Below are positions 275 to 24,103 of a stretch of DNA of 29,818 nt, piece by piece. Below the pieces are notes generated by a model. It was not told the origin of the DNA. It did not search any database and was given only the letters and a program-made list of their open reading frames with translations. The translations under genes were made by a program, and so were the position numbers. Each line of letters starts with the position of its first letter. Position 1 is the stretch's first letter. Source of the DNA: a virus; IMG/VR virus record IMGVR_UViG_3300019124_000022, positions 1 to 29,818 of that record, one strand, 5' to 3'.

Positions 275-299
275 CTAACCCCAAAGGCAAGGGTCACAG

Positions 300-1580
300 A
301 TGCCGAAGCTCACCAAGAAAATCGTGGACGCGGCCGAGCTGCGGGAGAAGCCATATTTCATCTGGTGCAGCGACCTTCCCGGCTTCGGCATCCGTGTCTT
401 TCCGTCCGGCAAGCGGGTCTATTATGCCGATTACCGCAACAAGTCCGGCCAGCGGAAGCGAATGACCATCGGGCCGCACGGCAAGCTCACGACCGAAGAG
501 GCCCGCAAGCTCGCCATGATGACGCTGGGCGACGTTCTGAAGGGCGAAGACCCGGCCGAGGAACGGGCCACCCGCCGCAACTCCCTCACCGTGAAGGAGC
601 TATGCGCCAACTACCTCGAAGCGGCCGAGCGCGGTTTGATCATGGGCAAGGGCGGCCGGGCGAAGAAAGCCTCTACCCTCTACGTGGATCGCGGCCGGAT
701 CGAGCGGCATATCATCCCCTTGCTAGGCTCGAAGCTGGTCCGCGACTTGGCGCAAGCCGACATTCACCGTTTCATCCGTGATGTGGCGGCCGGAAAGACG
801 GCCACCGTCGAGAAGACCGGCAAGCCGCGCGGCAAAGCCATCGTCGAAGGCGGGATCGGCACGGCCGCCCGCACCGCCGGCCTGCTGGGCGGCATCCTGT
901 CCTTCGCCGTGTCCGAGGGCGTCATTCCGTTCAACCCGGCGCAAGGTGTGAAGCGTCCTGCCGACAAGAAGCGCCAGCGGCGGCTCACTGCCGAGGAGTA
1001 CCGCCGGCTAGGAGAGGCGCTTGAGAAAGCCGAGGAGGAGGCAGAGACGGAACAGGCCATTCATGGGGCTTGGCTGCTTGCCCTCACCGGCTGTCGCCTA
1101 GACGAGATCCAAGGGTTGAAGTGGTCCGAGGTTGATGAGGCCGGCGGCTGCTTCCGGCTGGAGGACACGAAGGAAGGTGCATCCGTCCGGCCAATCGGAC
1201 GCCCGGTCTTTGACGTACTGGCGAGGATCGAGAGACGGAAGGGCTGTCCCTATGTGCTACCGGCCGCAAGGGGAGCCAAGGGCCATTATGGCGGCCTGCC
1301 CGGCGGCTGGGAGCGGATTGCCGAGCGAGCCAAGTTCACCGATGTGACGCCGCACACCCTCCGGCATTCTTTCGCCAGCGTGGCCGGCGATCTAGGGTTC
1401 ACCGAGAGCACCATTGCCGCAATGCTGGGCCACGCGGCCGGATCGGTGACCAGCCGCTATGTCCATCACCTCGATAGCGTCCTGATCGCGGCGGCCGATA
1501 AGGTGGCGCGGGCAATTCATGCGCAGATGACGGGAGAGGAAGGCAAAATCGTGCAGCTTCCAAGCCGGGCGGCGCGGTGA
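300..1580 (+). CDS. int: tyrosine-type site-specific integrase of element 1
   Basis: This 426-aa protein catalyses integration and excision of element 1 at tRNA-Arg. The N-terminus (residues 1-85) resembles the DUF4102-type arm-binding domain, the middle (95-210) is the SAM-like core-binding domain and the C-terminus is the catalytic domain. Catalytic residues are visible: R266 in TGCRLDEI, K291, H352 and R355 in HTLRHSF, H378 in LGHAAG and the nucleophile Y387 in SRYVH. The ATG follows AAGGG about 7 bases upstream. It sits 170 bp inside attL and reads into the element, next to the putative arm sites. Length and motifs are normal for the P4-like family, so the gene looks intact. Confidence 0.95.
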   Translation: MPKLTKKIVDAAELREKPYFIWCSDLPGFGIRVFPSGKRVYYADYRNKSGQRKRMTIGPHGKLTTEEARKLAMMTLGDVLKGEDPAEERATRRNSLTVKELCANYLEAAERGLIMGKGGRAKKASTLYVDRGRIERHIIPLLGSKLVRDLAQADIHRFIRDVAAGKTATVEKTGKPRGKAIVEGGIGTAARTAGLLGGILSFAVSEGVIPFNPAQGVKRPADKKRQRRLTAEEYRRLGEALEKAEEEAETEQAIHGAWLLALTGCRLDEIQGLKWSEVDEAGGCFRLEDTKEGASVRPIGRPVFDVLARIERRKGCPYVLPAARGAKGHYGGLPGGWERIAERAKFTDVTPHTLRHSFASVAGDLGFTESTIAAMLGHAAGSVTSRYVHHLDSVLIAAADKVARAIHAQMTGEEGKIVQLPSRAAR

Positions 1581-1591
1581 CTGACGATTTT

Positions 1592-1683
1592 GCGGTGTAA
1601 CAGGTGTAACGCGTGTAACAGCACTGATTTTAAAGGAACATTCCTGTTACACCGCGACTTACGGCAGGTGTAACAGGTGTAAC
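1592..1683. repeat. iteron cluster 1 (GGTGTAAC repeats) with inverted repeat
   Basis: Six copies of the 8-mer lie here. Three are forward at 9-bp period (1594, 1603, and 1612 as CGTGTAAC), one is inverted (1647-1654), and two are forward (1667, 1676). A perfect 13-bp inverted repeat (1592-1604 with 1643-1655) flanks an AT-rich centre. The same six-copy order in mirror image occurs at 8493-8605. It could be a Rep-binding site, a second origin arm or a transcription end for int. The rest of the 1581-1798 gap shows no gene. Confidence 0.7.
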
Positions 1684-1798
1684 AATTGCCAGCAGGTTGA
1701 AAGCTCAGTCCGCTGGGTACTCAGATTTGAGCCCTTCGGCAAGCAGTTGGATCAGCTCGCAAGGCTGCCCGGCCACTTCACAATCGATAGCAAAATCG

Positions 1799-2314
1799 TC
1801 ACCGAATTGACAGGAGCTCGTCTGCTTGGGCTTCGGTTATCTCGGTAGGCTTGCCCCAACGGGCCCAAAGATCAAGCATTGCTTCATAATCAGGCTCACC
1901 GCCGTGAGAATTCAGGTAATGGTTATGCTCGATGTACTTACCATTTTTGATCAGGAAATTGGCATACGCGAGCAGTTCGGGGTCTTTGTTGCCGTCGAAG
2001 CCTGGAAATTTGGGCTCGAAATTCTCAAGACGTAGGCGGCCTGAAGGATCACGGTCACCACCTGAATTGTCGAGCGCTTCTTTGTTCTTGGCGAGCTTTA
2101 GCAGGTAGTACAGCCACATGATGGTATGAACGAAGTTAGTCCGCTCCTCCGGAATAGGCTCAGAGAGACCAAGATACTCGTCATATTCGGCCTCATATCC
2201 TCTATCTAGAATGGTGATGATTTCCTCATAACCTTCGGGATTCTTCTCAAGTGCTGCGAGGATTCGATATTGACCGATCAGGATCGCCCGCTCGGCAGGG
2301 GTGAGCTTCGCCAT
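1799..2314 (-). CDS. YfbU-family protein
   Basis: This 171-aa protein resembles E. coli YfbU (164 aa; PF03887). The likeness covers the N-terminal pattern LTPAERAILIGQYRIL, then an ILDRGY segment (residues 36-41), EERTNFVHTIMWLYYLL (about 56-72), a PGFDGNKD stretch (104-111) and YEAMLDLWARWGKP near the C-terminus. The biochemical role of YfbU is not well established; it is a helical cytosolic protein. It is the last gene of the minus-strand accessory block, 242 bp downstream of the NYN gene, so it may be cotranscribed with it or have its own promoter. That gap shows no clear ORF. The family call rests on remembered pattern similarity and is fairly strong. Confidence 0.75.
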   Translation of the reverse strand: MAKLTPAERAILIGQYRILAALEKNPEGYEEIITILDRGYEAEYDEYLGLSEPIPEERTNFVHTIMWLYYLLKLAKNKEALDNSGGDRDPSGRLRLENFEPKFPGFDGNKDPELLAYANFLIKNGKYIEHNHYLNSHGGEPDYEAMLDLWARWGKPTEITEAQADELLSIR

Positions 2315-2556
2315 AGTTGCCTCAAAGAATGGAATTTCTGCTGTTCACCAGAGTTGGGCAGCGACTGATTTGTCACATGAGTCTTGCGCAACTGGCAACG
2401 TAGGCAAGGCACCCGCCCACGTCTGTGTTTGGTGCGGCGCCGAGTGGTAATTTCCGCAACGTGGAATCTCTACCCTCAAACCCATGCGCCACAAGGCTTT
2501 GATGGTATTTCTCTTGCCGTTTTTGGCCGAAAGAATCAGTAGGCAAATCGGCCGAG

Positions 2557-3324
2557 CTATTCGGCAACCTCATCTTTCGCTGGTGCTTTAGACTCTTCAG
2601 GAACCGTTATTGTGTAAGCCTTCTTCACTTTCTTTTGCGGAGCAGGCGGAGTGCGAACACCATCTGTATGTTCGAATAGGTGATCGTGAAGCTTCTGCCC
2701 AAGAGGATCGATGATAATATCGATGCCCTCTCGCCTAGCGAGCTTCGCGGCAGGAACGAAGTCGCTATCTCCTATGACTAGGACGATTTGATCAACAAGC
2801 TTCTTGTATGAAAGAGCAGCTACGTCCAATCCGAGCCGCATATCGACGCCTTTCTGATTGGTGTCGATGATAAAGCTCTCATCAGTAAGGTCCTCAAATT
2901 TCACCTCACCGCGGAGCAGCTTGGTAACCACGTCTTGCTTCAGACGCCAGTTCGTCGTGTCGAGGAGATGGCCGAGGCGAAGAGCTACCTTCCGCTTCCG
3001 CTTCAGTTCGTTGTGGAGCTCGCGGCGGAAGACCGCTTGAGGGGTTTTGCCGAAGTCGATGACCTTTTTACTTACGGGATGGTGCATCTTCTTCTCAAGC
3101 GGAGGACAGTCGTAAAAGAAGATGCGGTAGAGATCGAAGCTTTCGAAGATCGGCCTCCGATCAAGGTCTTGTCCAGTACGCTGATATTTGTGACGCAGAG
3201 CGTGTTCGTGGATTATCCGTGCAACGGCCTTTGGATCATCCGCCTGGACATCTGGGAAATAATGTTTCAGCCTCTTTAGAAAGAAGCCCCCATCAACCAA
3301 TACCGCCACACGATTTCGATGCAT
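2557..3324 (-). CDS. NYN-domain (LabA/DUF88-like) putative RNase
   Basis: The protein has 255 aa from the ATG at 3324; an upstream in-frame TTG at 3342 is less likely. It shows the PIN-like NYN fold signature: an N-terminal strand with acidic D11 in VLVDGGFF, KGVDMRLGLD around residue 161 and IGDSDFVPAAKLARREG with D186 and D188. These acidic residues form the metal site for RNA cleavage in this superfamily. The C-terminal 35 residues are charged and likely disordered. A TTGACG-17-TATCTC promoter and a long 5' leader hairpin lie just upstream, suggesting the transcript is regulated at RNA level. With its nuclease and YfbU neighbours it may belong to a defence or helper-interference cargo of the satellite. 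That role is inferred. Confidence 0.85.
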   Translation of the reverse strand: MHRNRVAVLVDGGFFLKRLKHYFPDVQADDPKAVARIIHEHALRHKYQRTGQDLDRRPIFESFDLYRIFFYDCPPLEKKMHHPVSKKVIDFGKTPQAVFRRELHNELKRKRKVALRLGHLLDTTNWRLKQDVVTKLLRGEVKFEDLTDESFIIDTNQKGVDMRLGLDVAALSYKKLVDQIVLVIGDSDFVPAAKLARREGIDIIIDPLGQKLHDHLFEHTDGVRTPPAPQKKVKKAYTITVPEESKAPAKDEVAE

Positions 3325-3344
3325 TCGATGCCCGTAAAGCAATA

Positions 3345-3413
3345 AGCCCCTGGGCTCGGCTTCCCGTACATAAATCGATCCAAGATCGACGGGAGAGCTT
3401 ACTGCCAGGGGCT
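3345..3413 (-). ncRNA. 5' leader hairpin of the NYN gene
   Basis: A perfect 9-bp stem joins AGCCCCTGG (3345-3353) with CCAGGGGCT (3405-3413). An inner 6-bp stem pairs TCCCGT (3362-3367) with ACGGGA (about 3389-3394). On the minus strand it begins only a few bases after the predicted transcription start and ends about 20 bases before the start codon. It could be an attenuator, an mRNA-stability structure or a target of the NYN RNase itself. No known RNA family is assigned. Confidence 0.55.
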
Positions 3414-3424
3414 GAATGAATTGT

Positions 3425-3453
3425 GAGATAGCTCACCCTCACCTAACCGTCAA
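3425..3453 (-). promoter_or_regulatory. promoter for the NYN gene, with overlapping operator-like palindrome
   Basis: On the minus strand a TTGACG -35 (3448-3453) is followed after 17 bp by TATCTC (3425-3430). The short palindrome GTGAG-ATAG-CTCAC overlaps the -10 box and could bind a repressor. The rest of the 3343-3588 gap contains the leader hairpin and no ORF that I would support. Confidence 0.45.
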
Positions 3454-3588
3454 CAGCCATAACCGTTCCGGCGTTTAAAACTTTCGATGAGTAGGATACC
3501 TCATTTGGGGTGTCTTCGGAGCATTTTCAACCCCCGAGAATGATCTGTAAGCCTTTCAAAAACCTAGCATAATCTGCTGGATATGGCC

Positions 3589-4080
3589 TCACTCCCGTGC
3601 CTTCTTCAACCTCACACCCGGCCCACCGCCATTCTCAGGAATGAACTCGACGCCAGCAGCTTCGAGCAGATCCTGGATCACACGCCTATCATCCTCTGGC
3701 TTTCTTAGGAGGCGCATTCGGGAATCGTGCGCCAATGCAGAACATTCGATTTCAACAAGTCTGATGCCGTTCGCCGGGAGCACCTGACGCCGCCGCTCGT
3801 CATAAATCTTCCGCTGCTCTCCTCGATGGACACCGCTCACAGTGAGTTTCCAAGGCTTATCGAAATGCGCAACGGGTCCACTGTGCTGCTCTTCCCGGTA
3901 TTCAACGACCAGTGCCAATGATGGATAGTACGCATCGACAGGCAACTTAGCGCACCGCCCGCTTGGGCCAGGATCTCCGATCAGGAATGGAAACCGCTTC
4001 TGCCGCTCAGCCGTTTGGCCGAGCACCTGGTCGCATAAGCTGATTACGTATGCCTCGTCGCTTTGATCTCGCTTCCCCAT
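3589..4080 (-). CDS. putative PD-(D/E)XK-like endonuclease
   Basis: This is a 163-aa protein if it starts at the ATG at 4080, which has AAGGGAA just upstream; an in-frame ATG at 4134 lacks a good site. The middle reads LPVDAYYPSLALVVEYREEQH, followed by YDERRRQVLPANGIRLVEI. This matches the layout of Vsr/DUF559-type nucleases: an acidic residue before a strand, a hydrophobic strand ending in E, a QH pair, then a helix with R and a final strand. The classical ExK lysine is not obvious, so activity is uncertain. It sits in a minus-strand run behind a ribbon-helix-helix regulator and a small unknown gene. It may be a DNA nuclease cargo; the exact family is not identified. Confidence 0.6.
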   Translation of the reverse strand: MGKRDQSDEAYVISLCDQVLGQTAERQKRFPFLIGDPGPSGRCAKLPVDAYYPSLALVVEYREEQHSGPVAHFDKPWKLTVSGVHRGEQRKIYDERRRQVLPANGIRLVEIECSALAHDSRMRLLRKPEDDRRVIQDLLEAAGVEFIPENGGGPGVRLKKARE

Positions 4081-4149
4081 TTCCCTTGCCTTAGCTTTTG
4101 TTCTTGTGGCGCCGCACCCCAGCTCCACCGCCATCGTCAGGAATGGCCG

Positions 4150-4485
4150 TCATTCAGGCTGGCGTGGCATCAAGCCACTTTCAGCGAGTTCGTTCACGAT
4201 CCCGATCACTTGCTCCTTTTGCTCGTCATTGAGCCACTTTAGCGAAGTACGTGCGAGACTTAGCACGTAGTCATAATCTCTCTGCGAAAGCTGGAATGCC
4301 CCAGATGCAGCGCAGTTTGTGACCCAAACACCAAGAATAAATCCTAGCGCATGATTAGTTTGAACCTCATTCATGCCGTTCAGCTTCCCAGCGGCATATT
4401 GCTCTATGCTTCTGGCATTAGAGACAGCATGCTGAGGGATTTTGTTTATGATGTTTTCTTTCGGCGGCTTGAATAGACCAAACAT
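4150..4485 (-). CDS. hypothetical protein (111 aa)
   Basis: I do not recognise this protein. It looks soluble and mostly helical, starts MFGLFKPPKENI and has a central mildly hydrophobic stretch (about residues 46-60) and a C-terminal helix with LNDEQKEQVIGIVNELAESG. It lies 26 bp downstream of the ribbon-helix-helix gene and 69 bp upstream of the nuclease-like gene on the same strand, so the three probably form an operon transcribed leftward. No toxin signature is clear, although an RHH gene followed by a ~110-aa gene is a common toxin-antitoxin layout. Confidence 0.6.
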   Translation of the reverse strand: MFGLFKPPKENIINKIPQHAVSNARSIEQYAAGKLNGMNEVQTNHALGFILGVWVTNCAASGAFQLSQRDYDYVLSLARTSLKWLNDEQKEQVIGIVNELAESGLMPRQPE

Positions 4486-4511
4486 CTATTTTGGCTCCAG
4501 TGATCGTCTAC

Positions 4512-4673
4512 TTACTTCAGGTAGCCCTTCGCCTTCAGGTGCTCGATTAGCAGCTTTTCCATGAGTGACGTCAGGGAACGGTGATCATCAGCAGCGGCTT
4601 TTTCGGCAGCTTCCTTGAGGCTGGGATCAATTCTGAGATTGAGGGTGGCCGTCTTCTTCCGTTGCTCTGCCAT
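4512..4673 (-). CDS. small ribbon-helix-helix DNA-binding protein
   Basis: This 53-aa protein starts at ATG 4673 with MAEQRKK; an upstream start at 4742 would run through the divergent promoter and is less likely. TATLNLRIDPSLKEAAEKAA gives the RHH strand followed by helix one, and HRSLTSLMEKLLIEHLKAKG gives helix two. The strand would insert in the DNA major groove as a dimer. The divergent promoter at 4692-4720 carries an ACTTG...CAAGT inverted repeat that is a likely operator. It could be a regulator of both directions or an antitoxin for the next gene. Confidence 0.8.
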   Translation of the reverse strand: MAEQRKKTATLNLRIDPSLKEAAEKAAADDHRSLTSLMEKLLIEHLKAKGYLK

Positions 4674-4691
4674 AAATGTAACGCCAGTGGC

Positions 4692-4727
4692 TTGACATGC
4701 GACTTGTATAGCCACAGTATCGCAAGT
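4692..4727 (+). promoter_or_regulatory. sigma70-type promoter with inverted-repeat operator
   Basis: TTGACA (4692-4697), a 17-bp spacer and CAGTAT (4715-4720) form a good promoter reading right. ACTTG (4702-4706) and CAAGT (4723-4727) form an inverted repeat, extended by TATA and TATCG, that spans the -10 region. It lies between the RHH gene on the minus strand and the acidic-protein gene on the plus strand, as expected for an autoregulated divergent control region. Confidence 0.6.
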
Positions 4728-4744
4728 GTCGTTACAAAGCAAAC

Positions 4745-4779
4745 GGCCGCGCTAGGTGGTTGCAACACCCAACGCGGCC
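4745..4779 (+). promoter_or_regulatory. 5' leader hairpin upstream of the acidic-protein gene
   Basis: GGCCGCG (4745-4751) pairs perfectly with CGCGGCC (4773-4779), and GGTG (4755-4758) pairs with CACC (4766-4769) inside. It lies between the promoter at 4692 and the start at 4804. Without a T-run it is probably not a terminator but a leader structure that protects or regulates the mRNA. Confidence 0.5.
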
Positions 4780-4803
4780 TGACCATCAACATGGAGTGAA
4801 GCC

Positions 4804-5181
4804 ATGTCTCAGGCTGTTGTCAGCCCTACCACACAGAGTTCCCATAGCGCACCTCTGTCAGTGACCCTTATTACCGCGGAAGCTGTTGCAATGAACCGTC
4901 TAGCACGTGAGACGGCTCGCCTTGTCGAACGCCTGGAAATTCTAGGCATGGCAACAGGCGACGGGCTGCGCCCTGCCGTAGAGGGAGCGGCCGAGGCCCT
5001 TATCAGATTCCTCGACTACCTCGACGGCGATTCTGACCTAGAGCCGGAAGAGGATGACGAGCACGACGGCCGAGAGCCGGACGAGGACTTCGAGGATGCG
5101 GACGACAACGGCATAGCGGACGCTGGCGGCTTGGCTGAGCAATGGAGCGGGGTCCGGCAAGTCACAACTGGCGTAGAGTGA
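4804..5181 (+). CDS. small acidic protein (125 aa)
   Basis: I know no function for it. Residues 1-30 look disordered, 30-75 are helical (MNRLARETARLVERLEILG and AAEALIRFLDYL), and 76-105 are almost all D and E (LEPEEDDEHDGREPDEDFED). Such small acidic proteins with a DGD-x-DLEPE motif recur in alphaproteobacterial prophages and islands. A DNA-mimic role is possible from the charge but is speculation. GGAG sits 7 bases before the ATG. A strong promoter and leader hairpin precede it, so it is probably an early gene of the rightward transcript. Confidence 0.7.
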   Translation: MSQAVVSPTTQSSHSAPLSVTLITAEAVAMNRLARETARLVERLEILGMATGDGLRPAVEGAAEALIRFLDYLDGDSDLEPEEDDEHDGREPDEDFEDADDNGIADAGGLAEQWSGVRQVTTGVE

Positions 5182-5214
5182 TCCATCGGCCCGGCCCCAA
5201 CGATGGAGCCGGGC
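5182..5214 (+). promoter_or_regulatory. two mutually exclusive hairpins after the acidic-protein gene
   Basis: TCCATCG (5182-5188) pairs with CGATGGA (5201-5207), while GCCCGGC (5189-5195) pairs with GCCGGGC (5208-5214). The two 7-bp stems interlock, so only one can form fully at a time. The second is followed by TTAT and could act as a weak terminator. It starts right after the stop codon. A switch role is inferred. Confidence 0.45.
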
Positions 5215-5227
5215 TTATCCACAGGCG

Positions 5228-5277
5228 CCTCTTGCAAATCGCCAGAGGCTGCGCTACCTCTTGCAAATCACAAGAGG
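5228..5277 (+). promoter_or_regulatory. tandem 21-bp palindromic operators
   Basis: Two near-identical sites occur at 5228-5248 and 5257-5277, each CCTCTTGCAAATC followed by an AGAGG half, 29 bp apart start to start. The second is the better palindrome (CCTCTTG...CAAGAGG). It contains the ribosome-binding region of the next gene (AAGAGGTGA, start at 5284), so a bound repressor or a folded mRNA could block expression. The MerR-like product of the next gene is the obvious candidate binder. Confidence 0.6.
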
Positions 5278-5283
5278 TGACAA

Positions 5284-5751
5284 ATGACCATCCGCCCGAA
5301 GCTAACTACCAAGTCTGCCTGTCGTGTGGCCCGTATTGATCGCGACCGTTTCAACGAACATGTCGCGGCCGGCCGCTTCCCCTGCGCGCCTAACACAGTT
5401 CCTGGCCGTGCTCGCCTGTTCGATCCGGACGACATGATCGGACTTTGGCTCTTCCGCGAACTGATGGAAGACGGATTTGAACCGGCCAAAGCGGGTGAAA
5501 TCGCATGTGAAGTCGCCAATGCTGCCCGTTGCTACCCGGATGCGTCCACTATCTCCTACGTTCAAGACTACTTTGGTAACGGTGGCAGGGCCTTCCCCTC
5601 TGATGCCGTCCCTGCCCCGTCAGAGTGGGATAACGTGCTCTTCAGCGGCACTGATATCCGGAAAGTCACGACGTACCGCATCGGCAAATTGCGCCAGCTG
5701 ATCGCGCACTACACCGCGGAAGAAAATTCCATCATCGGCGAGGACGACTGA
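5284..5751 (+). CDS. putative MerR-like helix-turn-helix regulator
   Basis: The protein has 155 aa. Residues 1-60 read KSACRVARIDRDRFNEHVAAGRFPCAP then ARLFDPDDMIGLWLFREL, which is the helix-turn-helix plus wing pattern of MerR-superfamily DNA-binding domains. The following helix (MEDGFEPAKAGEIACEVANA) could dimerise. The C-terminal 60 residues are not recognised. The start at 5284 overlaps the second palindromic operator and has AAGAGGTG as ribosome-binding site. In satellites such genes lie in the regulation module between integrase and primase; it may control excision or replication genes. The exact role is inferred. Confidence 0.65.
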   Translation: MTIRPKLTTKSACRVARIDRDRFNEHVAAGRFPCAPNTVPGRARLFDPDDMIGLWLFRELMEDGFEPAKAGEIACEVANAARCYPDASTISYVQDYFGNGGRAFPSDAVPAPSEWDNVLFSGTDIRKVTTYRIGKLRQLIAHYTAEENSIIGEDD

Positions 5752-5827
5752 CGCAAACTTCGTGATGGGAATTGCTCTTCGGCTCCTCCCCTAACCGAGT
5801 AGCCGAAGACTAATCGAGAGGAAGATG

Positions 5828-6112
5828 ATGAGCACTGAAGCAACGCGGAGCGATCCGCGAACAGATGAGCTTTGCCTGCCGCCTGCCCTGCGCAAGCCGC
5901 GCCTTCGCCGCTGGGAAGCGGCTGAATACCTGGAGCGAGTTCACGGCATCACCATCGCCGTAGCAACTCTCGCCAAGCTCGCCAGCGTCGGCGGCGGCCC
6001 GGCTTATCACAAGAGCAATCGGACACCGCTCTATCCGCGCGACGAGCTGGACCGCTGGGCGGCCGAACGTCTCGGCAACCTGATCACTAGCACATCGGAG
6101 CAACAGCAATGA
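5828..6112 (+). CDS. AlpA/HTH_17-like regulator or excisionase
   Basis: The product has 94 aa; an ATG at 5825 is equally in frame, but 5828 has better spacing from AGAGGA. RRWEAAEYLERVHGITIAVATLAKLASVGGGPAYHKSNRTPLYPRDELDRWAAERLG is not contiguous text of any motif longer than the family's core, but its parts match a winged helix: EAAEYL, a recognition helix with LAKLAS, GGGPAY, and YPRDELDRWA. This is the typical excisionase/AlpA pattern. In PICIs, AlpA activates satellite genes after helper infection. It overlaps the next start by ATGA, showing translational coupling. Confidence 0.7.
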   Translation: MSTEATRSDPRTDELCLPPALRKPRLRRWEAAEYLERVHGITIAVATLAKLASVGGGPAYHKSNRTPLYPRDELDRWAAERLGNLITSTSEQQQ

Positions 6113-6288
6113 GCTTGAAAATGGAAACTGCGACGGGCGGCCAGGCCCGTCGCAGCGAAAAGAAAGCGGTCCCTAGCAAAGTCCGCAGAGCCAATATGAA
6201 CCACAAGACGACGCTGATGGCAATGCCCCGGTTCCGGCCGATCTGGAGCGAGGATCGCCGTCATTTCCAAGGCTGGGAGCTGGCGTGA
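6109..6288 (+). CDS. small basic hypothetical protein (59 aa)
   Basis: The protein is too short for usual ORF cut-offs, but it is coupled at both ends: its ATG overlaps the upstream stop (ATGA) and its TGA overlaps the next ATG (TGATG at 6286-6290). It is rich in R and K, starts MSLKMETATGGQARRSEKK and ends FRPIWSEDRRHFQGWELA. No family is recognised. The coupling and codon use suggest a real gene of the satellite regulatory operon. Confidence 0.55.
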   Translation: MSLKMETATGGQARRSEKKAVPSKVRRANMNHKTTLMAMPRFRPIWSEDRRHFQGWELA

Positions 6289-6542
6289 TGGGGGTGAGCA
6301 TGGCTAGGCGCAAACCCGCCCCTCACGGTTCGCCAGCGGCTTCCTGCGAGTACATCGAGGAGATGGCCGCTTTGATTTGTCTCTACGGCGAAATGCTCCG
6401 CATGCATGCGACCGTCCCTGATATCACGGGGATGGGCTACCACTTGGACAAGGTGATTGCCTACGTGCGTTCGGCCGCGTTCGTCTACGACGACCTGAAA
6501 AAGTCTATGGTCGAGAAAGCCGGGGATAATCGTGCGGCTTGA
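6288..6542 (+). CDS. hypothetical protein (84 aa)
   Basis: The start at 6288 is chosen because its ATG overlaps the preceding stop; a GTG at 6285 is also in frame. A basic N-terminus (MARRKPAPHG) is followed by helices (YIEEMAALICLYGEMLRMHA and MGYHLDKVIAYVRSAAFVYDDLKKSM). No family is recognised. It overlaps the start of the DUF927 gene by 11 bp, so it is part of the same operon and is likely to be translated together with the primase-helicase. Confidence 0.55.
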   Translation: MGVSMARRKPAPHGSPAASCEYIEEMAALICLYGEMLRMHATVPDITGMGYHLDKVIAYVRSAAFVYDDLKKSMVEKAGDNRAA

Positions 6543-7083
6543 GCAACATGATCGTTTCGCGGATGTGCCCGCTCCTATGGGCACGTCTACTCCGAATGGC
6601 TCCATGCAGGACCATGACGAGAATCCGCCGGCCGAGAAGCCGAAGAAGACCGCGAAGGAAAAGTGGCCGTTCCGACTGACTGAAAAAGGCGTCGAGAAGC
6701 GTGTCGAGACGCGTGACAAGGAACTCGGCATCACAACCGAGGAATGGCGCTGGTTCTGTTCGCGGCTCGAGGTATCTGCTGAAACCCGATCTTCCGAAGG
6801 CGAGGAATGGGGCCGGCTGCTTTCCGTGACGGATCGTGACGGCCGCGTGAAGACCTGGGCCATGCCTATGGCGATGCTGGCAGGCGACGGCACGGCCTAT
6901 CGTGAACGCCTCCTCTCTCTCGGCCTAATCATGGCTCCGGGCAAGTTCGCCCGCGACGCCCTGCACGAGTACATCAGCACCGCCCGGCCTGGTGATAAGG
7001 CGCGATGTGTCGGACGCCTCGGCTGGGAGCTAGAAACCTTTGTTCTGCCGAATGGCGCAATCGGAGATCCTACCCATGGGTGA
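6532..7083 (+). CDS. DUF927 primase-helicase, N-terminal part
   Basis: This 183-aa ORF (GTG start overlapping the upstream gene; GGGGAT as ribosome site) carries the N-terminal half of a DUF927 domain, with WGRLLSVTDRDGRVKTWAMPMAML, LLSLGLIMAPGKFARDALHEYI and GRLGWELETFVLPNGAIGD. DUF927 proteins normally continue straight into the P-loop ATPase. Here the frame ends at TGA 7081-7083 while the rest continues in another frame from ATG 7076. A 1-base insertion in the CCC run near 7073 would explain the break. Alternatively the two halves are coupled cistrons. It is probably the replication protein of element 1. Confidence 0.75.
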   Translation: MRLEQHDRFADVPAPMGTSTPNGSMQDHDENPPAEKPKKTAKEKWPFRLTEKGVEKRVETRDKELGITTEEWRWFCSRLEVSAETRSSEGEEWGRLLSVTDRDGRVKTWAMPMAMLAGDGTAYRERLLSLGLIMAPGKFARDALHEYISTARPGDKARCVGRLGWELETFVLPNGAIGDPTHG

Positions 7084-8422: not shown

Positions 8423-8447
8423 GACTTCGGCTGATGAGGACGAACCC

Positions 8448-8753
8448 ATGAAGGCATATGACCTCCTCGACGCCTTTGCCCGCAAGATCGGCGTTACACC
8501 TGTTACACCTCCTCACCATCGAGGTGTAACAGGTGGTGCAACCAGAAATAAGAAGCCAGATCAGTTACTTAGAAAACGCGTTACACCCGTTACACCTGTT
8601 ACACCGCAAAATAATAATGGCTGGGATGAAAACGATTGGCAGATGGCTTTCGAGGAACGGGCCGCGATCCTCGAATATGACGGCGGCCACTCCCGGCAAG
8701 ATGCAGAGCGTTTAGCGCGTGAAGAGATTGAGAATATGCTCGCAAGTTCCTGA
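8448..8753 (+). CDS. VTPVTP-repeat protein encoded across origin-like iterons
   Basis: The protein has 101 aa from ATG 8448. The N-terminus (MKAYDLLDAFARKIG) is followed by TP-rich repeats (VTPVTP at about 17-22 and VTPVTPVTP at about 45-53) that are the direct translation of the GTTACACC DNA repeats. The C-terminal 45 residues (DWQMAFEERAAILEYDGG and QDAERLAREEI) are a conserved helical tail that I associate with alphaproteobacterial island proteins of unknown function. The repeats probably serve DNA function first, and the protein tolerates them. It lies 25 bp after the DUF927 gene. Confidence 0.65.
   Translation: MKAYDLLDAFARKIGVTPVTPPHHRGVTGGATRNKKPDQLLRKRVTPVTPVTPQNNNGWDENDWQMAFEERAAILEYDGGHSRQDAERLAREEIENMLASS
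8493..8605. repeat. iteron cluster 2, candidate replication origin
   Basis: GTTACACC copies lie at 8493 and 8502 (9-bp period), one inverted copy at 8523-8530, and three more at 8580, 8589 and 8598 (9-bp period). They flank a more AT-rich stretch (about 8535-8578). Read on the minus strand the order is three forward, one inverted, two forward, exactly that of cluster 1 at 1592-1683. In staphylococcal PICIs the origin is a pair of iteron sets flanking an AT-rich region downstream of rep, and the position here matches. Confidence 0.65.
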
Positions 8754-8858
8754 AATGCCGTGACAATTCCAGCATATTTAAGTCACATCTTCTAGCCATC
8801 TATTCTTTGACTTACTTCCTGATTGGTCGATTTTCGCCTTGTAACGCGCAAGGCGACA

Positions 8859-10067: not shown

Positions 10068-11728
10068 TGGAACACCTCACGCTCGAAGTGAAGTTCGCGA
10101 CCGGTGATGCCGGGCTCGTCTCCGGTTATGCCTCTCTCTTCGGCCGGCCTGCCGATTACGTGAACGACGTGATCGAACCGGGAGCCTTCGCGGCTTCTCT
10201 CTCGGCTCATGACGCCAGCGGCACCATGCCTCTCATGCTGCGAGAGCACAAAGGCGAGCCTATCGGGGAATGGCTGGAGATCGAGGAAGACGAGATCGGC
10301 CTTCGCGTGAAAGGCCGGCTGGACATCAACACGCCCGGCGGGCGCGAAGTCTATGAGCAGGCGCGCGCGGGCCGGATTGATGGCCTGTCCATCGGCTATC
10401 GCGCCGTGAAGGCGGATCGCGAACAGGACGGCACCCGCACACTCCAAGAGATCGAATTGCACGAAATCAGCTTGGTCCGGCGTCCCGCGTCGAGCCGGGC
10501 GCGCGTGCTTTCAGTGAAGTCGGCTCCGGCCGGCACCATCGCCGCGAAGGGCGCGGCAACATCCAAGAGGACGACCATGGAAAAGAAGGAAACCGCGCCC
10601 GGCGGTAACTCGGGCAATGAGACGGACATCAATGCGCGCGTTGACGGCCTGGCAGAGACGGTTTCGGCCATCGACACCCGCTTGACGGCCGTGGAAGAGA
10701 AGGTTGGCTCGGTCAAATCCGTTGCCGACCGGATCGAAGCCAAGCTCAACCGGCCCGGCGCGGCCACTGAGACGAAGGCGGCACCGGAGAAGATCGAGGT
10801 AAAGGCGTTCCATGCTTTCCTTCGGCGCGGCATCGAACGGATGGAAGCGGACGAGGTGAAGACCCTCACCGTCGCCAACGACCCTTCGGCCGGCTACCTC
10901 GCTCCGCCGGAGTTCGGCACCGAGCTCTTCAAGAACATGGTCGAGTTCTCGCCCATCCGACAGTATGCCCGCGTGGTGCAGATCACCGGCCCGGAGATCC
11001 GCTATCCGCGCCGCGTGTCCGGCACGACCGCCTATTGGGTGGACGAGATCGAGGATCGCACCGGCTCTGAGCCGACCTTCGAGCAAGTGACGCTCACGCC
11101 CTGGGAGCTGGCGACCTTCACGGAGGTGTCCAACCAGTTGCTTGAGGACAACGCCTATAACCTGGAGCAAGAACTTCGCCTCGACTACGCCGAGTCCTTC
11201 GGCAAGAAAGAGAGCGTTGCCTTTGTGAACGGTACCGGCGTGAAGCAGCCGAAGGGCGTCCTTCAGGCTGCGGGTGTTGCCGAGATCGTCACCGGCAAGG
11301 CGGACGGCTTCGCCGCGACAGATCCGGCTGACGCTCTTATCCGCATGTATCACGCTCTGCCGACGGCTTATGCCCAGCGCGGCGCGTGGCTCATGAACCG
11401 CAACACGATGGGCCTGATGCGCCTGTGGAAGGACGGACAGGGCCGCTACCTCCTGAACGAGCCGATCACCGAAGGCGCTCCGATGACGCTTCTCGGCCGC
11501 CCGGTCATTGAGGCTGTCGATGCGCCCGATGTGGCCGCGAATGCCTACCCTGTCGTGTTCGGTGACTGGTCCGGCTACCGGATCGTGGACCGTATCGGGC
11601 TTTCGATCCTGCGCGATCCTTACACTCGCGCCCGGAACGGCATCACGACCTTCCATGCCCGCAAGCGCGTGGGTGGTGACGTGACCCATCCCGACAAGTT
11701 CGTGAAGCTCAAGGTTGCGGCCTCTTAA
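10067..11728 (+). CDS. fused HK97-family prohead protease and major capsid protein
   Basis: One 553-aa frame joins two normally separate proteins. Residues 1-150 are a U35/S78-type prohead protease, with H61 in REHKGEPIGEW and S108 in DGLSIGYR as likely catalytic residues and ELHEISLVRRPA closing the domain. Residues about 185-232 are a coiled coil (VDGLAETVSAIDTRLTAVEE), like the delta scaffold of HK97 gp5. Residues about 245-553 are the HK97-fold capsid, with SAGYLAPPEFGTELF and WELATFTEVSNQLLEDNAYN. The protease would process the scaffold and release itself. The start overlaps the portal stop. Fusions of this kind are known in some phages. Confidence 0.93.
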   Translation: MEHLTLEVKFATGDAGLVSGYASLFGRPADYVNDVIEPGAFAASLSAHDASGTMPLMLREHKGEPIGEWLEIEEDEIGLRVKGRLDINTPGGREVYEQARAGRIDGLSIGYRAVKADREQDGTRTLQEIELHEISLVRRPASSRARVLSVKSAPAGTIAAKGAATSKRTTMEKKETAPGGNSGNETDINARVDGLAETVSAIDTRLTAVEEKVGSVKSVADRIEAKLNRPGAATETKAAPEKIEVKAFHAFLRRGIERMEADEVKTLTVANDPSAGYLAPPEFGTELFKNMVEFSPIRQYARVVQITGPEIRYPRRVSGTTAYWVDEIEDRTGSEPTFEQVTLTPWELATFTEVSNQLLEDNAYNLEQELRLDYAESFGKKESVAFVNGTGVKQPKGVLQAAGVAEIVTGKADGFAATDPADALIRMYHALPTAYAQRGAWLMNRNTMGLMRLWKDGQGRYLLNEPITEGAPMTLLGRPVIEAVDAPDVAANAYPVVFGDWSGYRIVDRIGLSILRDPYTRARNGITTFHARKRVGGDVTHPDKFVKLKVAAS

Positions 11729-11758
11729 GGCCGCTTCCCCAACTTTGAGGACACCGAC

Positions 11759-12130
11759 ATGCGCGACATGCGGAACAGCATCAAAATCGTCCCGGTGGTT
11801 GAGCCCGGCGTCTATTCGGGCAAGGCCGAGGGCAAAGCCGTGGACACAGCGGGATTCGACTCGCTCACGTTCGCCATCGTCATGGCCGAAGGCGGCAAGG
11901 CCAGCGGCTTCGAGGTTGCGATGGAGCACAGCGATGACGGCAAGGAATGGGAACTCGTTCGGCCTGACAACGTGCTGGGTGAAATCGAGAGCGGTGAACC
12001 GTTCGGCTACACCGGCGGCACGACGGGCCAGCGGCGCTACGTGCGCCTTTCCCTTTCCCCGAAGGGCAAGACTACCAAGGGCACAGGTTTAGCCGTGATG
12101 GCCATTCTCGGCCATCGGCGCGGATCTTAG
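11759..12130 (+). CDS. hypothetical head-module protein (123 aa)
   Basis: I do not recognise a named family. The protein appears all-beta: alternating short strands with FDSLTFAIVMAEG, FEVAMEHSDDGKEWELV, FGYTGGTTGQRRYVRLSLSP and GLAVMAILGHRR. The EHSDDG.EW pattern recalls carbohydrate-binding-like jelly-roll or head-fiber folds. GAGGA lies 9 bases before ATG 11759. Its place directly after the capsid gene suggests a head decoration or stabilising protein, inferred from position only. Confidence 0.7.
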   Translation: MRDMRNSIKIVPVVEPGVYSGKAEGKAVDTAGFDSLTFAIVMAEGGKASGFEVAMEHSDDGKEWELVRPDNVLGEIESGEPFGYTGGTTGQRRYVRLSLSPKGKTTKGTGLAVMAILGHRRGS

Positions 12131-12239
12131 GGCGGCGGTTTTCTGAGGCCGATGCGATCAGGCCAACAACGGAAAGTCACCTCCCTGCCGCCCGTAGCTC
12201 TGTTCAAGATGCGAGAGGGTCAAGGTGACGAGATCGCAT

Positions 12240-12268
12240 GAGGGGCCGGAGACACCAACCGGCCCCTC
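12240..12268 (+). terminator. strong GC hairpin between capsid and connector genes
   Basis: GAGGGGCCGG (12240-12249) pairs perfectly with CCGGCCCCTC (12259-12268) around a 9-base loop. No T-run follows (CCCATCC), so it may be a pause or RNA-stability element that sets the capsid-to-connector ratio, not a full terminator. The rest of the 12131-12300 gap shows only a possible 29-aa ORF (12152-12241). Confidence 0.5.
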
Positions 12269-12300
12269 CCCATCCTCCGACGAGATGAAGGCGTATCACG

Positions 12301-12930
12301 ATGCTCACGGTTATCAGCCCTGCCGCCCATCACCGGCTTACGACGCTCGAAGCCGTGAAGAATGAACTGTCGCTCACGAATACGGCCGATGATGCGTTCC
12401 TCTCCGACCTGATCGACCAAGCAAGCGATATCGTGCGCACTTGGTGCGGCCGGTCATTTGCGCTCGAAGGCGTCCGTGAGACGCTGCATCACAACCGGCC
12501 GGGCGCAAGCGTGATGCTTTCGCGTTGGCCTGTCGCCTCGATCGATGCCGTCACTATCGATGGTCGAGTTTTCGACCCTGTGAATTTCCAGGCCGAAGAC
12601 GGCGCTGGGATCGTCTACCGGATCGGTGCTGACGGCTGCACGGCGAGCTGGCCATCCGGCCGGACAGTGATCGAGTACACGGCCGGCTATGTCCTGCCGA
12701 ATGACGACAACTCGGCTGAGCCCACCCTGCCGAAGGATATCGAGCGCGCTGCCATCATCCTTGTGAAAACGGCCTACTTCGCGCGTGGCCGCGATCCGCT
12801 CATTCGCACCGAAGATGTGTCCGGCATCGCCAGCACGACCTACTGGGTTGGTGGCTTCGGCAATGGGGCAACCCTGCCGCCCGATGTGGAAGGGCTCCTG
12901 TCCCCGCATCGGCAAGTTCTGATCGGGTGA
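12301..12930 (+). CDS. head-tail connector protein (gp6-like)
   Basis: This 209-aa protein begins with the connector signature TLEAVKNELSLTNTADDAFLSDLIDQAS followed by IVRTWCGRSF (the first given in two parts: LEAVKNELSLTNTADDAFL and DLIDQAS). The later ERAAIILVKTAYFARGR helix is also typical of gp6-type adaptors, which form a ring under the portal and receive the tail. The middle (60-130) is beta-rich with TIDGRVFDPVNFQ. It is followed after 4 bp by the head-tail joining gene. In a cf-PICI this protein would provide the interface that accepts a helper tail. Confidence 0.88.
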   Translation: MLTVISPAAHHRLTTLEAVKNELSLTNTADDAFLSDLIDQASDIVRTWCGRSFALEGVRETLHHNRPGASVMLSRWPVASIDAVTIDGRVFDPVNFQAEDGAGIVYRIGADGCTASWPSGRTVIEYTAGYVLPNDDNSAEPTLPKDIERAAIILVKTAYFARGRDPLIRTEDVSGIASTTYWVGGFGNGATLPPDVEGLLSPHRQVLIG

Positions 12931-12934
12931 CACG

Positions 12935-13267
12935 ATGAACGCTGAGATCGTCGCTCTTGATCGTGCCCTTGCCCGCACTGGCGAAACCATCACCCTGCGG
13001 CGCGGAACGACAACCGCTCCGACTGCCCTCGCGACCGTGAAGGCTCATGTACGCGGCTACAAGCCTGAGGAGCTGATCGGCGGCATCACTCAGACGGATA
13101 GCCTTGTCACCCTCTCTCCAACCGATCTTGTCGCCGCGAATTGGCCGATGCCACCGAAGAAGGGCGATTGGGCCATCATCCAGGGCCGCGCCCGCTCCGT
13201 CGAGGTGGTCGGCCTGATTGTCGCGGCTGATGTGCTGGTTCGGATCGAAATGCGGGTGCTGGGCTGA
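12935..13267 (+). CDS. head-tail adaptor / head closure protein
   Basis: The 110-aa protein has the size and beta-rich pattern of phage head-tail joining proteins (SPP1 gp16/HK97 gp7-like): ETITLRRGTTTAPTALATV, VRGYKPEELIGGI, LVTLSPTDLVAANWP, KKGDWAIIQGRARSVEVV and a final strand. It plugs the portal-connector complex and docks the tail. It starts 4 bp after the connector gene, and its stop overlaps the HNH start (TGATG), so translation is coupled. Confidence 0.8.
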   Translation: MNAEIVALDRALARTGETITLRRGTTTAPTALATVKAHVRGYKPEELIGGITQTDSLVTLSPTDLVAANWPMPPKKGDWAIIQGRARSVEVVGLIVAADVLVRIEMRVLG

Positions 13268-13719
13268 TGCCGTGGTCTGCACCAAAGCACTGCCCGCATG
13301 GCCATCCGCCTTACCGTGGATCGCGCTGCCCGCATTGCTCGGCCGCCTTCAGAGCGGCGACCGAAGCGCGCCGGCCGAACGCTCAACAGCGTGGTTATGA
13401 CAGCAAGTGGCGACGTGAGAGCAAGGCATTCCTCGCTCTGCCCGAGAACCGCTTTTGCGCCTGCGGCTGCGGACAGGTTGCCGACATGGTTGATCACCGC
13501 ATCGCTCACAAGGGCGACAAGCGTCTGTTCTGGGATCGCTCAAACTGGCAACCCATGGCCCGCGCCTGCAACTCCCGCAAGGCAATCCGAGAGGAAGGCG
13601 GCTTCGGCAACAAAGTGTCAAAACCCCTAGGGGAGGGTTCGAATTTGGCCTCTGGGGGCGACGACCGACCGGGGGTACTTGCGCGCAATCTCGTGGAAAA
13701 TGGGAGTTTTCGGAAATGA
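13267..13719 (+). CDS. HNH endonuclease of the packaging module
   Basis: The protein has 150 aa. N-terminal CPHG and CPHC pairs suggest a zinc knuckle. The HNH core is FCACGCGQVADMVDHRIAHK, where D and H of DHRI are the catalytic pair, followed by N in RSNWQPM and the C-terminal CNSRK. HNH proteins next to terminase work with TerL and portal in cos cleavage and packaging, and an adjacent HNH-TerS-TerL order is a hallmark of cf-PICIs and HK97-like cos phages. The frame overlaps TerS by ATGA. The last 40 residues are low complexity. Confidence 0.9.
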   Translation: MPWSAPKHCPHGHPPYRGSRCPHCSAAFRAATEARRPNAQQRGYDSKWRRESKAFLALPENRFCACGCGQVADMVDHRIAHKGDKRLFWDRSNWQPMARACNSRKAIREEGGFGNKVSKPLGEGSNLASGGDDRPGVLARNLVENGSFRK

Positions 13720-14126
13720 AGGGCCGCAAGCCGAAGCTGGCGGTGATCGAAGGCGGGTTTTCACCTGGCCGCTGCCCGGCTGCGCCCACATGGTTCACCC
13801 CTCAAGCGAAGGCGGAGTGGAAGCGGGCCGCGCCTCAACTCCATGGCCGGAAGCTGCTGTCATCCGACACGCTCGCAACCCTCGAAAGCTACTGCGTGGC
13901 TGTGGGCGTGGTGCGTGAATGCGAAGAGATCATGGGCCGCGACGGTCGCATGATCGAGAGCGAGGACGGCCCGAAGCCGCACCCTGCATTCAAGATGCAA
14001 AGCGCCGCGATGCGCGAAGCAAGACTTTTGGCCGCTGAACTGGGGCTGACCCCGCACCGTCGCGGCGTGCAAAGCAAAGACGAAGGGAAACAAAACGATG
14101 GCTGGGAGTCCGATCTTCTCGCCTGA
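13716..14126 (+). CDS. terS: P27-family terminase small subunit
   Basis: This 136-aa protein has the phage terminase small subunit P27 layout: MKGRKPKLAVIEGG at the start, CPAAPTWFTPQAKAEWKR, a central helix with LATLESYCVAVGVVRECEEI, then HPAFKMQSAAMREARLLAAE and GLTPHRRG at the end. It recognises satellite DNA (cos) for packaging and so decides which genome fills the head. It is coupled to HNH upstream (ATGA) and overlaps TerL by 29 bp. Confidence 0.9.
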   Translation: MKGRKPKLAVIEGGFSPGRCPAAPTWFTPQAKAEWKRAAPQLHGRKLLSSDTLATLESYCVAVGVVRECEEIMGRDGRMIESEDGPKPHPAFKMQSAAMREARLLAAELGLTPHRRGVQSKDEGKQNDGWESDLLA

Positions 14127-15711
14127 TCCGGCGCTTTACCCTGATCCGACCGGCAGGGCTGACCGTATCTGCCGCTTCATCCGGCGGCTCAAATTGTGGG
14201 AGGGCGACTTTGCCGGACGACCTTTCCACCTTCACGGCTTTCAGGAAGCCATTGTTCGGCGCATCTATGGGCCGAGCACCGACGACGGCGCGCGCCTGGT
14301 GCGGATCGCCTGCATATGGATACCACGCGGCAACGCGAAGACGACTTTGGCCGCTGGGCTGGGCTTGGCTCACTTCCTGGGCCCGGAGGCTGAGGCCGGC
14401 GGACAGGTTGTCATGGCCGCCGCGGATCGGGAGAACGCTGGCATTGCCTTCAACTCGGCCCATCAATTCGTTCTGCAGGATGACACCCTTTCCTCTCGGG
14501 TTCGGGCCATCGAGAGCCGGAAGACCCTCGGCCATCCGAAGACGAAGAGCACCCTGAAGGCTATCTCGAGCGAGGCTTATTCGAAGCACGGTCTAAACGT
14601 GTCGTTCTTCCTGGCCGATGAGGTTCACGCCTGGCCGCTGGGAGAAGGCCGCAAGCTCTTCAAGACCGTCACCGACTCCATGGTGAAGCGGTCGCATCCT
14701 CTCACGGTGATCATCTCCACGGCTGGCGAAGGACAGGGCGGCTTGGCCTGGGACTTGTGGCAGTACTCACACAAGGTGGCGTCCGGCGAGATCGAAGACC
14801 CGACGTTTGCACCGATCATCTTCGCGGCTCCGCCTGAAGCCGATTGGCGGGATGAAACCGCTTGGCGCATGGCCAACCCTGCGATTGCCGCCGGTTTCTG
14901 TTCGCTCGAAGAGCTGCGCATTAAGGCGCGGCGGATCGAGCACTTCCCGGCCGAGATTGCGGACTTCCGCCGCTTTCACCTCGATCAGTGGCAGGAAGGC
15001 GCGGCGAACCCCTGGCTTGCGCTCGAAGTCTATGACGCGGCGGAGCCGATGACGCCGGTTGAGGATCTAGCGGGCCGGTCGTGCTGGGTTGGAGTGGACC
15101 TGTCGAGTGTGGAAGACCTGACGGCCGTGGTTGCCGTCTTCCCCGATGGCGATGAAGAGGGCCGCCGCTATGACGTGCTGCCTATGTTCTTCCTGCCCGA
15201 AGCTGGATTGACGAAGAAGGCCGAGAAGGATCAGGCCGATTACCTGCGCTGGAAGGAAGCCGGGTTCCTGACCGTGACTGAAGGCAACGTGGTGGATCAT
15301 GCCGCCATCGTGGATTACGTGGTTGAGCTGGGCACGAAGTACGGCGTTCAGGAAATCGCCATCGACCGCTGGAACTCCACAGCGGTGAACACGGCCCTTC
15401 AGGACGAGGGCTTTACGATCAACCAGTTCGGACAGGGCTTCGCCAGCATGGCCGCCCCTGTGAAGGAACTGAAGCGGGCGATCCTGTCCGGCCACTTCCG
15501 CCACGGCGGCAACCCGCTCCTGCGCATGTGCTTCGGCAATGTGGTTGCCGACAAGGATGCGGCCGAGAACGAGAAGTTCACGAAAGAGCGGGCGCGTGGC
15601 CGGATCGATGGAGCCGTTGCCGCTGCCATGGCCGTGGGCCGCATCCTGGCGAATGAAACCGGGCCATCACCCTATGAGACGCAACGGCCCGAAGGCTTCC
15701 TGTTCATCTGA
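14098..15711 (+). CDS. terL: terminase large subunit
   Basis: The protein has 537 aa. The ATPase part carries Walker A PRGNAKTT (residues 76-83) and Walker B VSFFLADEVHAWP (about 168-180). The C-terminal RNase H-like nuclease part starts with CWVGVDLSSVEDLTAVV near 331 and contains EIAIDRWNS and a final acidic DGAVAAAMAVGR helix. It cuts DNA and pumps it into the proheads. It overlaps TerS and closes the packaging module. No tail genes follow. Confidence 0.95.
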   Translation: MAGSPIFSPDPALYPDPTGRADRICRFIRRLKLWEGDFAGRPFHLHGFQEAIVRRIYGPSTDDGARLVRIACIWIPRGNAKTTLAAGLGLAHFLGPEAEAGGQVVMAAADRENAGIAFNSAHQFVLQDDTLSSRVRAIESRKTLGHPKTKSTLKAISSEAYSKHGLNVSFFLADEVHAWPLGEGRKLFKTVTDSMVKRSHPLTVIISTAGEGQGGLAWDLWQYSHKVASGEIEDPTFAPIIFAAPPEADWRDETAWRMANPAIAAGFCSLEELRIKARRIEHFPAEIADFRRFHLDQWQEGAANPWLALEVYDAAEPMTPVEDLAGRSCWVGVDLSSVEDLTAVVAVFPDGDEEGRRYDVLPMFFLPEAGLTKKAEKDQADYLRWKEAGFLTVTEGNVVDHAAIVDYVVELGTKYGVQEIAIDRWNSTAVNTALQDEGFTINQFGQGFASMAAPVKELKRAILSGHFRHGGNPLLRMCFGNVVADKDAAENEKFTKERARGRIDGAVAAAMAVGRILANETGPSPYETQRPEGFLFI

Positions 15712-15721
15712 GGAGAGAGCA

Positions 15722-16117
15722 ATGCACACTGTGACGATCACCGGCCTGAACCGGGTGAGCAAGCCGAAGCCGAACCGGGCCGGGTTCACGATCCTGGCGT
15801 TCTTCGATTGCGAGGCCGGCGGGTTCGCTCTTCAAGGCTGCGCTCTGGTTCGGACGCCGAAGGATGGCTTGGTTGCTTGGCCGCCAAAGCTGGACGGTCC
15901 CGAAGGTATGCGCCGCTCCGTCGCGATCCTCGATGATTCGCTCCGCCATGCGATCATGCTTCACGCCCGCGAAGCCTACCGGGCCTTGGGCGGCCGTGAT
16001 GCCGAGTGGATCGGGCGCGCTGTTCCTATGGGTCCGCGTCAGCACGACGCTACAGCCGAGGATGGGAATGAGCCAATCGAAGGACTTCAACGCTTCCTCG
16101 GGGCTAATGTTAGTTAA
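15722..16117 (+). CDS. hypothetical protein (131 aa), SpoVG-like outline
   Basis: The start at ATG 15722 follows GGAGAGAG closely. The central part (FTILAFFDCEAGGFALQGC, ALVRTPKDGLVAWPPKLDG, then LRHAIMLHAREAYRALGG) has the outline of SpoVG-like nucleic-acid-binding proteins, in which a strand pair leads to a conserved G-hydrophobic-x-x-P-P turn and a long C-terminal helix. This likeness is weak evidence, and I cannot name a family. It lies 10 bp after terL and is probably cotranscribed with it. Confidence 0.55.
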   Translation: MHTVTITGLNRVSKPKPNRAGFTILAFFDCEAGGFALQGCALVRTPKDGLVAWPPKLDGPEGMRRSVAILDDSLRHAIMLHAREAYRALGGRDAEWIGRAVPMGPRQHDATAEDGNEPIEGLQRFLGANVS

Positions 16118-16151
16118 TGTGAGATGCCGGGAGACGTGGTAATGTTCGCAT

Positions 16152-16391
16152 ATGCCCCGTTACTTCTTCGACACGCATGACGGCGACCTTTTCATCCGAG
16201 ATGACGACGGTCTTGAGCTGGACGGCATAGAAGCCGCTCGTGATGCTGCCACAGGTGGGCTCGCGGATTTGGCGCGGGACGCAATTCCTGGTTCTATGCG
16301 CAGAGAACTTTCTGTTCAGGTTCGCGATGAGGGAGATAAGCCCATTATCAGGGCTGCCCTTTGGTTCGAAGTCGCAACCCTGATTCCATAG
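16152..16391 (+). CDS. DUF6894-type small protein (79 aa)
   Basis: It begins MPRYFFDTHDGDLFIRDDDG and continues with a helix (EAARDAATGGLADLARDAI) and a strand pair (RRELSVQVRDEGD and IIRAALWFEV). This is the DUF6894 pattern common in Hyphomicrobiales; function unknown. A second member (25983-26231) is in element 2. It is the last gene of element 1, 27 bp before the right arm sites, and could be a host gene picked up by imprecise excision. Confidence 0.75.
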   Translation: MPRYFFDTHDGDLFIRDDDGLELDGIEAARDAATGGLADLARDAIPGSMRRELSVQVRDEGDKPIIRAALWFEVATLIP

Positions 16392-24100: not shown

Positions 24101-24103
24101 TAC

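Follow-up and report, generated by a model that had tools for sequence, protein, structure and literature searches.

Organization and gene content of the element

The window analysed here, a metagenomic IMG/VR record of 29,818 bases, includes a bounded element of 16.4 kb (element A, positions 80-16531) that is seated in the 3' half of a tRNA-Arg(CCG) gene. Its ends are formed by an exact direct repeat of 47-48 bp, with attL at 80-127 and attR at 16485-16531 (longest match 16484-16531). The copies lie 16,404 bp apart, in agreement with the original prediction of a 47-bp att repeat spaced by about 16.4 kb. The repeat sequence is the 3' half of an intact tRNA-Arg(CCG) gene identified by ARAGORN at 16485-16561 on the minus strand, and a sister element in genome G622 is flanked by the same 47-48 bp with 100% identity.

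Profile searches confirmed the gene list first proposed for this DNA: integrase, DUF927, portal, protease-capsid, connector, adaptor (closure), HNH endonuclease and both terminase subunits. The tyrosine integrase (300-1580, plus strand; PF00589, phrog_1) has an omega (dN/dS) of 0.03-0.08. It precedes a block of variable cargo at 1799-4792 that differs in every relative and consists of five minus-strand ORFs, including YfbU-domain and NYN-domain (LabA-like) proteins and small ORFs; the claim that all genes are co-directional is thus incorrect. A comparison of the cargo with defence profiles returned a single weak LabA/NYN match and nothing else. Next on the plus strand are a small conserved acidic ORF (4804-5181; 68-77% identity in L004, L005 and G622) and, downstream of two 21-bp repeats found by repeat search at 5228-5277, an ORF at 5284-5751 (35-99% identity in relatives). 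The latter had been called MerR-like, a putative label for which profile searches gave no support. The plus-strand ORF at 5825-6112, previously described as AlpA-like, has a weak match to phrog_7338 and none to Pfam; among solved structures it is closest to RdfS, a recombination directionality factor (8dgl, E 2.8e-4), and it is probably an excisionase-regulator of the AlpA/RdfS helix-turn-helix type. A further small conserved plus-strand ORF (6285-6542; 60-93% in relatives) lies upstream of DUF927.

The head and packaging genes are all encoded on the plus strand. They begin with the portal (8823-10067; PF04860, E 4e-106) and an S78 prohead protease fused to an HK97-fold major capsid protein (10064-11728; PF04586 and PF05065), whose best solved relative is the RcGTA capsid. 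These are followed by a small ORF, g11759 (11759-12130; phrog_5707), by the connector and closure genes described below, and by the HNH endonuclease (13267-13719; phrog_144), TerS (13716-14126; PF05119, Terminase_4) and TerL (14098-15711; PF03354 and PF20441; omega 0.03-0.05). The element ends with a conserved plus-strand ORF with no named function (15722-16117; 86% identity in L003, 54-69% in G130 and L082) and a DUF6894 ORF (16152-16391, plus strand; PF21834). The AlphaFold model of g11759 (AF2 pLDDT 72) is all-beta and jelly-roll-like, and Foldseek returned weak matches that include the jelly-roll-bearing head chain of Bordetella phage BPP-1 (3j4u_H), with unnamed phage proteins scoring better. 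Our best guess from this model is a head decoration protein. A role as tail tube protein is disfavoured by the jelly-roll-like fold and by the presence of distinct tube genes in relatives.

The original prediction also held that tail and lysis genes are missing. None of the element A ORFs scanned matched a tail or lysis family in PHROG/Pfam-type profile searches. Custom profiles built for five tail components (the tape measure, tube, chaperone, completion protein and terminator) were all negative; such calls of absence are profile-based, and divergent proteins could escape them. By these profiles, element A lacks the tail and lysis modules of a full temperate prophage.

Replication module

DUF927 had been predicted as a primase-helicase. 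The family assignment stands, but in place of a single intact ORF there are two overlapping ones on the plus strand: an N-terminal part at 6532-7083 (PF06048 positions 1-130) and a translationally coupled C-terminal helicase part at 7076-8422 (PF06048 positions 129-282; phrog_1139, primase), which share the stop/start overlap ATGGGTGA. Of six elements compared, at least five keep this overlap (the window, L005, G622, L004 and L082), and the sixth, L003, keeps the start motif. Because the overlap is conserved across elements, we interpret the division of DUF927 as a natural coupled split and not as damage; a frameshifted gene is ruled out by the same conservation in relatives.

The iterons noted originally are real, with 11 copies of GGTGTAAC in two clusters where about 0.5 would be expected. 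The first cluster, at 1587-1683 (copies at 1594-1683), follows the integrase with the copies in 9-bp steps. The second (8493-8612), a probable origin, lies inside a small ORF after DUF927 and before the portal. The layout in two separated clusters resembles that of satellite P4, with its ori and crr sites. The primases (priC) of L005 and G622 are 95-98% identical to that of the window and are accompanied by the same iteron, GGTGTAAC. In L003 and L004 (primase 72-79% identical), two clusters of GGGGAACA occupy equivalent positions; L082 has two clusters of GGTGTTAC, and a cut-off element in G130 has GGTGCTAC. Since the iteron is shared at 95-98% primase identity and differs wherever identity falls to 67-79% (the elements with GGGGAACA, GGTGTTAC or GGTGCTAC), iteron sequence co-varies with the primase, as would be expected if DUF927 binds the iterons.

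Close relatives

Viral contigs were searched with the capsid, and a Rhizobiales family was searched with the tRNA flank. The capsid search identified L003, L004 and L005 as near-complete sisters, with capsids 94-96% identical to that of the window, and a second group at 60-73% identity; the flank search identified G622, with its sister element at the same tRNA-Arg gene. Among deposited phages no close TerL relative was found, the best being about 39% identical. From these relatives we infer that the host of element A belongs to the Rhizobiales and is a soil alphaproteobacterium, which agrees with the alphaproteobacterial host proposed at the outset.

The gene order of element A recurs in these four elements. 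Across them capsid and TerL are 94-98% identical, and the integrase, head and packaging genes 89-98%, with the exceptions of TerS (79-96%) and HNH (76-81%); the cargo between integrase and regulators is different in each sister. For integrase, portal, capsid, g11759, TerS and TerL, comparison of the window with its sisters gives omega values of 0.025-0.17. Because the layout is shared by four other elements and purifying selection on these genes is strong, element A is, as far as sequence comparison can tell, a maintained mobile element and not a relic or decaying prophage. In a further tRNA-Arg relative, L061 (G130:C23 1756-9004), the portal (82%) and TerL (87%) are close to those of the window and the capsid has been replaced (50%), an indication that heads are exchanged too.

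Tail genes in the wider Rhizobiales clade

The notion that all Rhizobiales loci of the portal-capsid-HNH-TerS-TerL type are tail-less proved wrong. Many carry a tape measure gene near TerL or the portal, accompanied in some by a gene for a tail tube, chaperone, completion protein or terminator, or by a gpM-like gene; in a PHROG scan of 52 large non-head ORFs, a single tape measure family was matched by 16. Three such elements are bounded by repeats: L066 in G077 (67-bp repeats, 18.1 kb) and L062 in G212 (19-bp repeats, 17.4 kb), both with head, neck, tape measure, tube and chaperone genes, and L160 in G096 (53-bp repeats, 17.2 kb) with head, neck and tape measure. Hub or fibre (tail-tip) genes were not seen inside any of these three, which could possibly be satellites that borrow only a tail tip. 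No tail gene is present in the window group or in the G001 element (18-bp repeats, 17.6 kb). In L010 a lone tape measure gene follows TerL (10951-13212) in an otherwise tail-less element; the near-identical L006 is without it. Because tape-measure-bearing members stand at the base of subclades that hold tail-less lineages, it is likely that the latter arose from tailed phages whose tail genes were lost step by step.

Such an ancestry also bears on the chief alternative, that element A is a defective prophage remnant, deprived of its former tail and lysis genes and now decaying or domesticated. Distant clade members with tail-shaft genes imply that tail genes were probably lost at some point, and the G622 portal appears to be frameshifted. 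We nevertheless regard this explanation as unlikely: the same tail-less layout is found in several independent elements, with head, packaging and integrase genes under strong purifying selection. Turnover of the cargo, co-variation of iteron and primase and repeated exchange of the neck also argue against it. The original prediction would have been undermined by close relatives that are full prophages from which tails were deleted; no full prophage sister was found among the relatives, the closest of which are equally tail-less and under selection.

Exchange of the neck genes

Against each of G622, L003, L004 and L005, DNA homology of the window (85-95%) breaks off at position 12252 and picks up again at 13253-13267. 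The non-homologous kilobase (the exchanged cassette, 12253-13263) coincides exactly with the genes for connector and closure. The window has a neck of type A, with a head-tail connector (12301-12930, plus strand; phrog_442) and a head closure/adaptor (12935-13267, plus strand; phrog_161, E 1e-4; 41-44% identity in tailed prophages), and its sisters one of type B (TIGR02215 connector, TIGR01563 closure). The same A/B exchange is seen in a Microvirga-type lineage, in which the connector of L006 and L010 is of type A and the type B side comprises G001, L007, L009 and L012 (the neck of G001, L009 and L012 being read directly); the capsid and terminase regions of these A and B elements are still 84-90% identical.

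Of 397 genomes sampled from the order Rhizobiales, 9 have a type A connector and 231 have one of type B. Some of the type A necks sit in tailed prophages with the order TerL-portal-capsid-connector-closure-tail completion-terminator-major tail protein-tape measure, and the satellite necks are 34-44% identical to these prophage necks. A search of the viral contigs with the type A connector gave no match, and phage records matched it at only about 30%. Type B is the widespread alphaproteobacterial phage and GTA form of the neck. In G171, a related tape-measure-bearing element (L069, G171:C6) coexists with a complete tailed prophage (L133 and L134, G171:C4) whose neck is of type A. Because the relatives of each neck type belong to a different class of tailed phage or GTA, exchange of the neck may switch the helper; the neck would decide which tail docks, and swapping it would change the helper.

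The GTA relationship raises the question of whether the heads, at least in type B elements, are completed with host GTA tails instead of phage tails. The element A capsid is nearer to that of RcGTA than to that of the E. coli satellite EcCIEDL933, type B connectors have relatives in the 231 genomes just mentioned, and the only other strong capsid-connector locus in G622, its main other HK97 locus, is GTA-like and of type B. However, type B necks are only about 35% identical to GTA-like necks, and the window itself has a type A neck with relatives in phages, which makes GTA tails a very improbable source.

A second element at the same tRNA gene

Element A is directly adjoined, at the same tRNA-Arg gene, by a second integrated element, element B (16520-29755). 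It encodes an integrase (28576-29568, minus strand) and a NACHT-domain protein weakly like the antiphage protein EruA (20930-24100, minus strand), together with a resolvase and a second DUF6894 gene. The 3' region of the resolvase is partly duplicated (19466-19562 and 20147-20245, 81-83% identity). The end repeat of element B comprises the 5' half of the tRNA and at least 64 bp upstream (98% identical), and the chromosomal tRNA-Arg halves now lie at the far ends of the window (75-127 and 29713-29818). The intact gene between the two elements seems to be built from the 3' half supplied by element A and the 5' half supplied by element B, which probably also brought its promoter. The tandem arrangement is the same in G622 (L058 and L059, G622:C1 4077334-4090974), where element B has a related integrase (73% nucleotide identity over window positions 28592-29756) and an AriA/AriB-like (PARIS-type) gene pair. 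The adjacency of the two elements in both the window and G622 might suggest a two-part phage with its tail genes on another element such as element B, a reading that we consider extremely unlikely given that element B has no tail genes and carries the NACHT protein, resolvase and integrase here and AriA/AriB-like defence genes in G622.

Proposed mode of action

The explanation that we consider highly probable is that element A is a phage satellite that forms heads but no tails, in the manner of a capsid-forming PICI (cf-PICI). A helper phage, whether it infects the cell or is induced there, would derepress the element, the RdfS/AlpA-like protein would drive excision, and DUF927 would start replication at the iterons. 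HNH, TerS and TerL would then cut the DNA and pump about 16 kb of it into the small heads made by the element, the connector and closure would dock a long non-contractile tail preassembled by the helper, and lysis by the helper would free the particles. The neck cassette would set the tail that is accepted and be exchanged to switch helper. Exchange of connector and closure between two classes thus offers a testable answer to a change of helper: swap the neck and keep the head.

Three observations are new here: the wholesale replacement of connector and closure between near-identical elements, recurring in the Microvirga-type lineage; an iteron sequence that changes together with the primase; and several related elements with tail-shaft genes and no tail-tip genes shown. 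A gradual transition from phage to satellite is suggested by those relatives that have tail-shaft genes. More tentatively, the Rhizobiales elements might represent a separate radiation of head-making satellites in which tail parts were lost or kept stepwise. The elements of G077 and G212, which also have a terminator or completion protein, would then borrow only a receptor-binding tip and the window lineage a whole tail, with a swappable neck setting compatibility; we hold this wider scenario to be possible and somewhat doubtful.

Comparison with known systems

The region of E. coli O157:H7 EDL933 at about 1680300-1694800 of NZ_CP008957, which we take to be the cf-PICI EcCIEDL933, has a capsid identical to the solved chain 9gyi_B and the order int, HTH (AlpA-like), DUF927, capsid, protease, portal, closure, connector, HNH, TerS, TerL. 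Blastp shows DUF927, portal, capsid, protease, HNH, TerS and TerL to be homologous between the window and EcCIEDL933. The two elements have in common an AlpA-like gene, a P27-type TerS, the HNH-TerS-TerL end, a small ORF, the lack of tail and lysis genes and a size of about 14-16 kb. They differ in that element A has its portal upstream, its protease fused to the capsid, a split DUF927 and the extra jelly-roll-like protein; protein identity is 24-40%, the target of element A is tRNA-Arg and its hosts are Rhizobiales. Of the features that mark a cf-PICI, element A has its own capsid, protease, portal and head-tail connectors and its own HNH, TerS and TerL; integrase and DUF927 are firm and the AlpA/RdfS-like gene weak. 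It is att-bounded, with 16.4 kb between the tRNA repeats, compared with a mean cf-PICI size of 14 kb (PMC10803314). The reading as a cf-PICI-like satellite with which this DNA was first annotated is thus supported by gene set and order, size, tRNA integration, lack of tails and a Rhizobiales host.

The Microvirga-type elements (L006-L012 and G001) share with element A the arrangement portal-protease-capsid-g11759-HNH/neck-TerS-TerL, a comparable size (17-18 kb), the lack of a full tail and the A/B neck exchange. They differ in having other replication genes and separate protease and capsid genes, and their capsid and TerL are 60-73% and 37-38% identical to those of the window. The likeness to RcGTA lies in the capsid, for which 6tb9 is the best solved relative, and in the type B connector family. 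GTAs encode complete tails but neither an integrase nor a replication module, and they have no att sites, whereas element A has an integrase and DUF927 and no tail genes. Satellites with a tape measure, a capsid and some tail genes exist in E. coli (PMC10448857); they are without terminase, protease, AlpA and adaptors, all of which element A has, and element A in turn has no tail gene.

A TerL tree of 48 rows, built with IQ-TREE, puts the window in a Rhizobiales clade of 34 rows (support 97/99) to which neither EcCIEDL933 nor the sampled tailed phages belong; EcCIEDL933, the single cf-PICI included, groups with tailed phages on a long branch. By TerL, element A thus lies outside the EcCIEDL933 group. 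Three cf-PICI radiations have been reported, cf-PICIs can use diverse phage tails (PMC13345588), and the hosts described are mainly Enterobacteriaceae and Firmicutes-type (PMC10803314). The conserved alphaproteobacterial lineage represented by element A widens this host range and probably adds a separate origin.
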